Below are positions 48,460-54,649 of a stretch of DNA of 64,000 bases, in pieces; position 1 is the stretch's first letter; each line of letters opens with the position of its first letter. The notes beneath the pieces were generated by a model. The model searched no databases, was not told the origin of the DNA, and saw only the letters and a list, made by a program, of their open reading frames with translations. The DNA is taken from the NCBI RefSeq assembly GCF_002234675.1, contig NC_019876.2, positions 28,533,196 to 28,597,195 of the forward strand. The letters are read 5' to 3'. Source of the stretch: Oryzias latipes. Taxonomy: Eukaryota; Chordata; Actinopteri; Beloniformes; Adrianichthyidae. The position numbers and the translations under genes were made by a program.

Positions 48460-49339
48460 GGGTCATTATCACCATAAAGTGCCTTTGGTGTCCCCGTGAC
48501 TATTACTCTTTCATAAACTAAATGGAGCAGAATAACTAAACTCTGACTTCTTATCATAAGTGACCCAAGACTTGCACACAAATCATTGAAATAATTTGGT
48601 TCTTAAATTGTGATTTCTTTAGTTTATGCAATTTTTTTTCTTTGGATGTATGCGATTTTGGTATGTCCCACACGCTGTTCTGCTAACTTCAGGGTGTGTA
48701 ATAAATGGTTAAATTATGCCAAATTAAAAAAAGATTAGTACACATTTCATGTCACAGCACAGTACTTGATAAAACAAGTAATTTTGATAAGGCAAATTTT
48801 ATTTTCATAATGCTATTGAAGATTTTGCGCACGTCCCTGACATTGCTGTCCACCCTGTCATTTTGGGATAACTGTCTCTCTAAAAAAACTGCAAATGTTT
48901 AGAGTGACATCACAACCAGCATTTTGTCTTTCTTCACTGGAGACTGAAACAGTGGCTAGTTGCAGAGTAAATATTTACACTTTTGTTTAGTAATTTTAAT
49001 CATATTAGGTGTGTAGTTAGATGTTGTCAAGCTTAACATGTCCACCCTGTCATGGTGAAATATCATTTAATATAAAAGCCTTTCCTAAATTTAAAATATA
49101 TACGTTAAACAGTACACAGTCTACTTGCTAACTGAATCATGTTGCTAAGTGAAGATCCACAATGTGCTCAATAAATGCTAACATTAACCAAAAACGTCCA
49201 CCCCGTCATTGTCCACCCTGTCAGCAAACCTTCTTTGACAGGGTGGACATGGTTCATGACAGGAAAGACATTTTGATAGTTTATGGGAACAAACTAATAA
49301 TGTTACATATTACAACAGCTCCTACTGACATTTATTACT

Positions 49340-49420
49340 TAAATTTCCCCTTGTGGAATTAACAAAGCACAATTGAATTGAATTGAATAACAATAAACAA
49401 GGTTTATAACAGTAAAGGTT
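49340..49420 (+). repeat. LINE/SINE-type 3' tail with (TTGAA)n
   Basis: TTTCCCCTTGTGGAATTAAC followed by AATTGAATTGAATTGAAT resembles the 3' terminus of fish LINE-related elements. No coding part is attached. Confidence 0.45.
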
Positions 49421-49578
49421 GCTAGATAGACAGACAGACAGACAGACAGACAGACAGACAGACAGACAGACAGACAGACAGACAGACAGACAGACAGATA
49501 GACAGACAGACAGACAGACAGACAGACAGACAGACAGACAGACAGACAGATAGACAGACAGATAGACAGATAGATGGA
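49421..49578. repeat. (GACA)n/(GATA)n microsatellite, LINE tail
   Basis: About 155 bases of GACA with a few GATA units, contiguous with the LINE 3' end at 49579. Frames rich in Leu-Ser-Val-Cys here are not genes. Confidence 0.95.
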
Positions 49579-50417
49579 GTACTTTATTAATCCCGAGGGA
49601 ACTTGCATATCCATCCGATGCTACTCAAATACACAAACATTCAATAGAAATTTAAAGTAGTTGAGTAATAAATGGTCATAAAATCATAAAATGATCGCAC
49701 TCACTAAAAACAAAATAAAAGTAAGTAAAAGCATAAAAGTGGTAAAAAGTAGATGCCCGTTTAGTGACTCCTCCTCATGCCCCTTCCCCTCCCTGTGGCA
49801 TTGAACAGTCTAATTGCACTCGGTGCAAAGGACTTTCTTTGTCTTTCTGTGGAGCATGGCAGAGAGCGAAGGCGGTCGCTGAATGCGCTCCTCTGGTCAC
49901 TAAAGAGTCCATGTAAGGGATGACCAGTGTTCTTCATGATGCTGTCCAGTTTGGACAGCATCCTCCGCTCTGCCACCACCTCCACTGTCTCCAGGGTCCG
50001 CCCCACCACACAGCCTGCCCTCCTGATCAGACGATTGAGTTTTTTTATGTCCTTTTTGTTCGCGCACCCCCCCCAACACACCACCGCATAGGACAGGGTA
50101 CTTAAAACAATAGATTGATAAAACATCAAAAGGAGATCTGAGCATACATTAAAAGAGGCGAGTCTTTTTACAAAGTACAACCTGCTCTGCCCCGTCCTAT
50201 ATATGGAGTCCGTGTTTACCGACCAGTTCAGCTTCTTGTCCAAGAGGACTCCAAGGTATTTGTAGTTATCCACCATCTCCACCTCTGCTCCACCAATGAG
50301 GATGGGCTGGACTTCAGCAGGTGTTCGTCGGAAGTCCAGCACCATCTCCCTTGTCTTGGTGGTGTTCAGGTGGAGGCAGTTTCGTTGGCTCCAGTGCACA
50401 AAGTCCTCCACCAGCTG
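49421..50417 (-). mobile_element. 5'-truncated CR1/L2-group LINE with (CTGT)n tail
   Basis: The minus strand reads the end of a reverse transcriptase and C-terminal region (LHLNTTKTREMVLDFRR, YKYLGVLLDKKLNWS, GQSRLYFVKRLASFNVC, AVVCWGGCA) in an open frame of 216 codons (50411-49761). The 3' UTR is short and ends in GGGATTAATAAAGTACTCC, directly followed by a (CTGT/CTAT)n tail at 49575-49421. The microsatellite is therefore the LINE tail. It interrupts the transposase-like ORF of the surrounding TIR element on the 5' side. Confidence 0.8.
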
Positions 50418-51747: not shown

Positions 51748-52218
51748 AACAACATTTTTCTTGTAATTTTACAGTTGAATGTTTGACTTTCACTGTGCAC
51801 ATTGATGTTCAGAAGTTATCTCAATAATGCCACACGAATGGCTAATTTCTGGTGTTTTTCGACATAAAGGAAGAGTGGATCAAAACCAGTCTGTTCACCT
51901 GATAATTTCACCCTACATGGGAAAGGGAATTCTGGTAGTGATTTTCTTTCATTAATTGCATAATGAGGTAATTTAACGACCTTTTAAAAATGTGTCCACC
52001 CTGTCATGCCTAGGGTCCACCCTGCCGTGCTACTGTCCACCCTGTCATTTTCCTATTCAAAGAAAATAAACAATGTATTTCTACAAGTTAGCAAAACTAT
52101 CTGTGTGATTCCTTTATTAATACATATGGGCCAAGTGGTTTTGGTTGAAATTTTCACCAAATATCTTTGTTCTTAGATTTTATTTAGAAAAGAAAGTGCA
52201 ATTCTTGCTGATTTTGTA
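51748..52218. other. 3' part of the 6.17-kb element with motif copies
   Basis: No coding sequence is present. Three copies of GTCCACCCTG(T/C)C are clustered at 51993-52046. Confidence 0.5.
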
Positions 52219-54268
52219 CACTGTAAACCCGAACAAGTTACCAGAACTTAAAAAAATTAAGGCAATCATTTGCCACAATTTTTTTGAGTTGATTAACTAA
52301 AAAGTCTGAGTTTTCCATAACATAAAAGATTTAATTGTGTGCTACTTGTATTTCTTCATAACAGTTAAATTAAAAGTGTCAATTTGTGCAAGTCAAATAT
52401 TGGCATTAAATATAACCTACATTTACACATTAAGACAACTTAATTGTCATCAGTTACAATGACTCGCAGTTTTGAGTTTTAAAGCCACAGGAATAAGTTT
52501 GCATAACTTAAAAAAATAGGGAAAAACAACAATTTTATCTTAACAGAACTCGATATTGATTAGTTACCTTCTTGTACAGGGATAATCAATTTGTTTGAGT
52601 CAGTAAACTCAAAACCATGCTTTTCAAAACTTATTTTCTTTAGGCAAATGATTGCCTAAAAAAATAGAGTAATGGTAACTTAAAACACTCTAAAAAGAAA
52701 AAAAGTTGATCCAACTTAATTGAATTACTTCAGTTGGTAACACCTAATTGAATTGAGTTCATGCAACTCAGTTTTTTATGGCAATTTAACTCAAATTGAT
52801 AAGTTGGTCTAATTGAAAAAACATGTTATAAATTTTGCTTCAACAATTTACATTGGCACATTATTCTAAAGTTTCAACTACTGGACCTTGAACTATTCAC
52901 ATCAAAGACATGAATGACCCAGCAATGTCTCATAGTTCAAGACAGGAGCTCAGGTGTTGCGAACTCTGCCTTTAATAATGGGACATACCATGTTTTTTGC
53001 TCTACGGGGTTGGTCATCATCGTCTACCAAACTCTAACTTATGGTTCAGAAAGAAATAAAAATAACAGTTTCATTTACTAGTTCAAACAGAGTAAAACAG
53101 CTACACAACAAAAACCATGGACAAAAACGCACACTTAAACCCCAATCTGCCCAGTTTGGCAAAGAGAATGGTATCCCATAATTCCTTGCGCTGCCTTACG
53201 TTATGATATCATGGTGCATTTACACAAAAGTTACACCAACTTAATTCAATTAAGTTGATTGAAAGTGAAATAACTACATCAGACAACTATGTGTCATTTT
53301 TAAGTTGAATGAACCCAAAACAATGATTTATTTTCACCAAACCAAATAATTAAGATAGAACAATGGAAAAAAGTTAATCTTTCCAACTACAGCCCAAAAC
53401 CTCTTTTTAGATTGTACAGCAAAATGTTGTGAACACCTGCCTAACAATATTAATGACTCACTCCTTTCTGTGCAATGCCTAAATAAAACTAATGAAAGTA
53501 CTTTTCATACGTAAGTTTAACTCTTACAAGAATTATTTTATTAAACAATATCTTTTGTTGTACAAAGGAGCCTTCGCGTCTGCCTACTTCTTCCATTTAT
53601 TTGAACATGTAAACAGCCAAACAGCATGGATCTCACTTCTGCTTCCAGCCCTCTCACTCATGGTTTTCACACCAAGATTTCCCACTTCCCATGAGTCTTA
53701 GGGGCTGAAGGCGGGGCTGGAGGTTGCTACAATATTTAGAAAAATAAAAATAAAAATTTGAGAGCATGCGGGGCAAGGAATTGTTTAATCCACCTGAAAC
53801 AAGAGAGATAAGAAATCCATGATGCAATACTTAAATCTACATATTACACTTTAATTATGTTTTAAGTTTAATTTACTTAATTTAAACATATTTTATTTTA
53901 AATTAAAAATTATTAGTTACATATACTCAAAACAGGGGATGTGTTGAACAAACTTTATATGATTGAGTTAGAAGAGCTTTTTTGACAACTTTGAGTATTA
54001 GCTACTCATTATATTTAATTACTTTGAACGTTCGGGTTTACAGTTTGCAATACTTAAATCTATATATTACACTTGAATTATGTTTTTAGGTTTAATTTAC
54101 TTAATTTAAACATATTTTATTTTAAATTAAAAACTATTAGTTACATATACTCAAAACAGGGGATGTGTTGAACAAACTTCATATGATTGAGTTAGAAGAG
54201 TTTTTTTTTAATTTTGAGTATTAGCTACTCATTATATTTAATTACTCTGAACGTTTGGGTTTACAGTG
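52219..54268. mobile_element. 2.05-kb TA-site element with a duplicated right end
   Basis: The left end is CACTGTAAACCCGAACAAG after TA, and the right end GTTTGGGTTTACAGTG before TA. The right terminal segment is present twice in tandem (53824-54046 and 54047-54268, period 223), each ending in a GGGTTTACAG terminus. The interior is AT-rich with many AACTTAATT/AAGTTGA repeats and no ORF. A TA target and a terminal CACTGTAAA suggest a Tc1/mariner-related or similar MITE. Confidence 0.65.
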
Positions 54269-54649
54269 TATGGGAACAACATTGTTTGCCCTAATTTAAT
54301 TACTATCTAAATACTCTTCTTATTAGCTAATACACAGTTTTGACAAAGGGACTAAGTAGCTTTCTGAAAATATCAATTTTATATCCATGATCTAATTACA
54401 ATGTATTTAATCTACTCTGAAATCGTCCATGACAGGGTTGACATTTTTTACTGTTTGTGTGTGCATTGTCTGCTTGCAGTTAATTTATAAAAAGTGTGGG
54501 AGCTTGACCAACATGCATTTCTGACAGCACCGCATCCACCTAACACAATAAATGCGAAGTTAAATGGAAAATCCCATATTTTTTGGTGGGATATTGGGAA
54601 GTCTCAAAGGCACCTTATGGTGATATTGACCCATCTATTTTTGCTGTAA

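Follow-up and report, generated by a model that had tools for sequence, protein, structure and literature searches.

A dead transposon copy in the medaka genome with four-base target site duplications, probably of Sola-like affinity

To which group of DNA transposons does a decayed element with a broken transposase gene belong, and how did its family spread? The question is raised by a stretch of 64,000 nucleotides on contig 18 of the medaka Oryzias latipes (NC_019876.2, positions 28,533,196-28,597,195), called the window here. It holds, on the plus strand at 48460-54632, a dead 6173-bp transposon copy bounded by terminal inverted repeats (TIRs). The copy is fairly likely to be a non-autonomous member of a low-copy family of cut-and-paste DNA transposons, best filed as Sola-like, and as a relic it is probably ordinary, from a superfamily already known. 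A first-pass annotation, made from the sequence of the window alone, had called it a TIR transposon with a 4-bp target site duplication (TSD) and a transposase-like gene, and in this it was right.

Ends, target sites and subterminal repeats

The 5′ end at 48460 reads GGGTCATTATCACCATAAAGTGCCTTTG and the 3′ end at 54632, inverted, reads GGGTCAATATCACCATAAGGTGCCTTTG, with 26 of 28 positions identical. When the whole genome (734 Mb in 25 contigs) was scanned with the TIR pattern at up to three mismatches, 40 ends were found, 37 of them starting with GGGTCA, versus none for the reversed pattern that served as a control. A DNA search of the genome returned 29 matches with the 5′ end and 18 with the 3′ end. 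The family is low-copy, with about 30 related copies in the medaka genome, and its 5′ and 3′ ends can be told apart by differences at fixed positions. Among 21 loci scanned, the 5′ end is present in 20 and the 3′ end in 11, and the bases outside them vary. Because flanking bases differ from copy to copy, these are real family ends and not the edge of the query. The exception is locus L022, where two 5′ ends 4.35 kb apart (L022:490-800 and 4843-7774) share identical flanking bases, AACTGCTCTGCT. Here the insertion site seems to have been duplicated locally.

Target site duplications were compared in 13 paired candidates (the window and loci L017-L028), of which 11 have both ends recognisable; L025, with an unrecognisable 3′ end, and L027, with neither end recognisable, were left out of the count. 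A perfect 4-bp TSD flanks 8 of these 11 copies, and none has a perfect TSD of 2, 3 or 5-8 bp. The eight are ATCT (the window), AAAG, ATTT, AGGA, AAAT, TGCT, AGCA and AGTC. The duplications of L017 and L028 agree at three of four positions, and in L026 the 5′ end has decayed and a TSD is missing. Among mismatched flank pairs, used as a control, an identical 4-mer occurred once in 110. The first base of the duplication is A in seven of the eight perfect copies; a pyrimidine precedes it in seven and a purine follows it in all eight, a pattern noticed post hoc in this small sample. The ends, TIRs and ATCT duplication first proposed for the window are thus exact to the base, and the other copies neither end elsewhere nor differ in TSD length.

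Inside the ends lies a subterminal repeat, GTCCACCCTGTCA, which occurs five to eight times (at most two mismatches, both sides together) in each of eight other copies scanned. The repeats cluster about 280-780 bp from the 5′ end and 200-590 bp from the 3′ end, except in L021, which contains extra sequence and where the 5′ cluster extends to about 1130 bp from the end. Shuffling L023 in two-base blocks, 200 times, gave 0.025 repeats per element. Judged from sequence, the repeats are candidate transposase binding sites. A transposase with three catalytic aspartates (DDD), supplied from elsewhere, would bind the ends, probably through the 28-bp TIRs together with these repeats. It would then cut the element out and join it to staggered target DNA, leaving the 4-bp duplication.

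The transposase relic and movement in trans

The gene had been annotated as a single open reading frame (ORF) at 50418-51747. It is transposase-like, but falls into three pieces: a one-base frameshift separates the first two, and a nested hAT-like miniature inverted-repeat transposable element (MITE) splits off the third. Among the 13 loci listed, the longest transposase frame is that of L023 (327 amino acids), followed by L017 (260 amino acids). The conserved blocks read DFRENY, FFSDRPATQ and FFEASHG(K/Q)GAPDGVDGALKR. In the window copy the second of these has SEK, which had been placed at an SDG-like position; it does mark the site of the second acid, where most copies read SDR.

The putative catalytic acids were counted by direct reading of 14 loci, with unreadable loci omitted from each count; such a reading detects sequence only where it closely resembles that of the family. 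An 18-row aligner table was set aside for these counts, as it took the acids of L020, L022 and L031 from deleted or unreadable stretches and those of L045 and L053 from the wrong strand. The first aspartate is kept in 11 of 11 readable copies and the third in 10 of 10. Of 12 readable copies, 8 hold D at the second position; the other 4, which hold E, are the four carriers of the MITE. The spacing is D-83-D-42-D. In the less decayed copies the acids read D, D, D. Judged from the sequence, the third aspartate would sit where the helix beyond the last strand begins.

The ORF very probably belongs with repeats rather than with a host gene: for 38 of its 43 match rows, a family end is found no more than about 6 kb away. 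The remaining five comprise four from the relatives L057/L065 and L060, which are decayed, and a single row on contig 17 (expect value, E, 6e-4). A motif scan of the medaka genome gave 15 matches, versus 6 for a control pattern, and 8 of the 15 fall in known family loci; of the seven outside them, two were looked at and neither is a relative.

Lesions in the gene are shared across the genome. The window copy, L019, L025 and L029, on contigs 18, 4, 20 and 9, have the MITE and the D-to-E change in common and differ in their flanks. The frameshifting extra base is present in 6 of 11 readable copies, namely these four plus L022 and L033. Because the MITE, the D-to-E change and the frameshift recur at loci with different flanks, the broken copies must have moved; the lineage kept spreading after its gene had broken in several ways. 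A tree of one stretch places the four MITE copies together with modest support (0.87), and in a tree of the 5′ stretch they are not resolved as a clade.

There is no sign of purifying selection in the substitutions, and codon drift stands at the neutral expectation: across 13 comparisons, all sharing L023, 76 of 349 differences are synonymous (21.8%, versus 24.1% expected). The corresponding counts against L023 in two distant relatives are 20 of 112 (L060) and 14 of 63 (L057).

One of these relatives has a longer gene. In L060 the open frame is longer by about 280 bp; at the corresponding place the sequence runs on without interruption in all 11 readable copies (21 loci scanned). The L060 ORF has 17 match rows, and its residues 1-64 are covered by its own row alone; three others start at residues 65, 74 and 86 (39, 39 and 61% identity) and are taken for probable run-on, and the rest start at residue 90 or beyond. 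In the 3.3 kb examined, this lone diverged relative (L060:1234-1785), with its additional N-terminal open stretch, shows no TIRs that can be recognised as those of the family. It may represent an earlier and more complete form of the element.

Because the stretch of about 280 bp is absent from all 11 readable copies, codon drift is neutral and a MITE breaks the gene in four copies, the family looks non-autonomous. Amplification with a defective transposase relic points to movement in trans. The founder of the family, we infer, had lost part of its gene and was moved by an autonomous partner that was not found in this assembly.

Nested insertions and the copia host

Three nested insertions in the window copy were mapped by alignment to empty sites in other copies (Table 1), and together they make up about 57% of its length. 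The size of 6.17 kb given in the first-pass annotation is exact in its coordinates, but inflated by these later insertions. Subtracting the inserts leaves about 2678 bp, and the L017 copy measures 2675 bp. The first insert is placed by the empty site in L017 and by alignment breaks in other copies; the third has no counterpart at the same place in the copies compared. The names LINE-like (resembling a long interspersed nuclear element) and hAT-like are provisional, having been read by eye from protein, ends and duplication length. Part of the LINE-like piece (49764-50417, minus strand) matches Pfam ALKBH8_N (E 1.9e-8). That name is probably misleading, as the protein appears to read like the end of an ORF of a retrotransposon without long terminal repeats. 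The third insert (52219-54268, inverted ends CACTGTAAACCCGAAC) holds a further copy of its own end sequence near 54028-54045.

The transposon sits within an older copia-type retrotransposon on the minus strand, whose integrase was recognised by eye and not by Pfam. For the two other copia ORFs tested, at 47773-48602, Pfam gave nothing up to E 0.01. Just past the transposon, the integrase flank carries a second MITE (about 54649-54853; ends ACTCTTGTGC and GTACAAGGGT, TA flanks). The copia frame had been described as continuous once the transposon is removed. This is nearly so: with both the transposon and the second MITE taken out, the frame runs on, save for a one-base slip beside the insertion site. 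The TSDs of other copies support the ends better than the copia frame does.

Farther along, 56213-57099 is GC-rich, and both of its strands carry long open frames that overlap. Similar protein text, by eye, lies at L052:2561-3144, beside another family copy on contig 3, and given that similar stretch the region is probably a repeat. For annotation, the locus offers a clean case of a low-copy fish transposon with base-exact ends, a fixed TSD length and nested insertions.

Table 1. Features of the transposon copy and of its copia host (window coordinates).
Feature	Position	Strand	Details
Host copia, reverse-transcriptase side	46925..48455	-	Pfam RVT_2, E 2.4e-22 at 46925-47362; remainder by eye
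TSD, left	48456..48459		ATCT; flanks the element; TSD comparison across copies
Whole transposon copy	48460..54632	+	6173 bp in full; about 2.68 kb once the three nested inserts are subtracted
5′ TIR	48460..48487	+	28 bp; 26/28 identical to 3′ TIR; also in other copies
5′ subterminal GTCCACCCTGTCA cluster	48848..49248		48848+, 49040+, 49196+, 49211+, 49236-; at most 1 mismatch each
Nested insert 1, LINE-like piece	49425..50420	-	Tail of CAGA/TAGA simple repeats; GCTA duplicated (4 bp)
Transposase relic, first two pieces	50421..51056	+	First D in DFRENY; SEK at the site of the second D; third D in SHGKGAPDG
Nested insert 2, hAT-like MITE	51061..51499		8-bp duplication GTGTAGAT; also in L019, L025, L029
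Transposase relic, third piece	51500..51747	+	Starts VDGALKRSADRIVAHGGDIPDAQ
3′ subterminal GTCCACCCTGTCA repeats	51994..52047	+	51994, 52015, 52035; 0, 2, 0 mismatches
Nested insert 3, element of about 2 kb	52219..54268		CACTGTAAACCC inverted ends; TA flanks
3′ subterminal GTCCACCCTGTCA repeat, inverted	54430..54442	-	1 mismatch
3′ TIR	54605..54632	-	28 bp; inverted match to 5′ TIR; also in other copies
TSD, right	54633..54636		ATCT; flanks the element; TSD comparison across copies
Host copia, GAG-pre-integrase and integrase start	54788..55399	-	Pfam PF13976, E 1.9e-8; integrase start by eye

Classification and comparison with known superfamilies

The 4-bp TSD had been taken as a hint of Sola. 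Together with the putative DDD acids it makes Sola the best available fit by mechanism and anatomy, the comparison being with descriptions of Sola. The further suggestion of an undescribed group is not supported: the absence of library matches shows only that models are missing, and Sola has already been counted in medaka, where a table in PMC4746887 gives it the entries 1245 / 325083 / 0.04.

Several points weigh against a non-autonomous Sola-like family. The comparison with Sola is by description and not by sequence. A glutamate 33 residues past the second aspartate is kept in 10 of 10 readable copies, equal to the third aspartate, so that a DDE reading of the acids is possible. A single-sequence AlphaFold2 model ends at the third aspartate and is unusable (mean predicted local distance difference test score, pLDDT, 34.6; predicted template modelling score, pTM, 0.27). 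The sequence AWWT, given in PMC3627910 as the duplication of Sola2 in the amoebozoan Dictyostelium fasciculatum, fits only two of the eight perfect TSDs. As for non-autonomy, the 13 codon comparisons are not independent, sharing L023 as they do, and dead copies of any kind, when set against each other, would in part show near-neutral drift anyway. The extra stretch of L060 could be an insertion there rather than a deletion elsewhere, and L060 is itself broken at the first aspartate and has E at both the second and third acids.

No searched profile library recognises the transposase: nothing above chance was found in Pfam, NCBIfam, PHROGs or PDB. The ORFs of L023, L017 and L033 have no Pfam match, integrase core included, up to E 10, and the PDB searches stayed at chance level (best E 0.18 and 0.39). 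Pfam DUF5678 (E 0.13, under its cut-off) and APC_15aa (E 4.5) were rejected as chance matches. The searches made of plasmids, phages and prokaryote genomes showed no relatives, nor did those of viral contigs, where 40 loci of one search and 2 of another were read only around the motif. One viral-contig and one prokaryote search used HGKGxCDG, a pattern taken from other proteins, which the family's own HGKGAPDG does not fit.

This silence, and TSDs that are mostly not AWWT, are what a distinct, unnamed DDD/E superfamily would leave, one that also moves by cut and paste with 4-bp TSDs and is neither Sola nor any other named group. Such a superfamily is unlikely. The missing matches show only that these collections contain no model for the transposase; they are not known to include one for Sola, so that a Sola member would be missed too. 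Moreover, DDD acids with a 4-bp TSD match the description of Sola in the relevant passage of PMC10741241. A narrower version, in which D-83-D-42-D transposases that share an SHGKGxxDG block and mostly A-initial 4-bp TSDs form an unnamed superfamily separate from Sola1-3, seems rather improbable. Should intact relatives turn out not to belong to Sola, they would fill a gap in the catalogue of eukaryotic transposase superfamilies.

It is doubtful, too, that the conserved glutamate is the third catalytic residue, with the PDG aspartate merely structural, and that the family belongs to another group with 4-bp TSDs such as Chapaev. Its conservation in every readable copy fits, as does its distance, spacings of about 33-35 being common in DDE enzymes. 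Chapaev elements, however, have CAC termini along with their 4-bp TSD, and the family has GGGTCA; by eye, moreover, the glutamate lies ahead of the helix beyond the last strand. Capture of a host gene fragment as cargo, which low copy number and a relic free of visible selection might suggest, is very improbable and was rejected: most protein matches lie near family ends, the two extra motif matches fetched are not relatives, and DDD-like acids and a place between subterminal repeats fit a transposase.

Among known systems, certain uncharacterised metazoan proteins with DFxENY, SDG and SHGKGxCDG presumably share the order and spacing of the blocks and offer a tentative lead. The piggyBac and Kolobok elements resemble the family in their 4-bp duplication, but both target TTAA, which matches none of the eight perfect TSDs, and no Pfam transposase was matched. 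Some families of Ginger1 and IS481EU also make 4-bp duplications, according to the portion of PMC10045372 that deals with them. In the same portion, IS481EU ends are given as TNT..AYA or TGT..ACA, unlike the GGGTCA..TGACCC found here, and in contrast to Ginger and other integrase-like superfamilies the family ORFs have no integrase-type Pfam match. The Sola-like assignment compares better. The passage of PMC10741241 on Sola describes a DDD transposase, 4-bp TSDs, lengths mostly of 2-9 kb and variable termini with TIRs of 11-1124 bp. The present family differs in being apparently non-autonomous, and from Sola2 of Dictyostelium fasciculatum in having TSDs that are not limited to AWWT. It may resemble Sola in its three conserved aspartates, the glutamate at +33 being equally conserved, and it does resemble Sola in its length of about 2.68 kb without inserts and its 28-bp TIRs, which fall within 2-9 kb and above the 11-bp minimum, and in a 4-bp TSD that is perfect in 8 of 11 copies.

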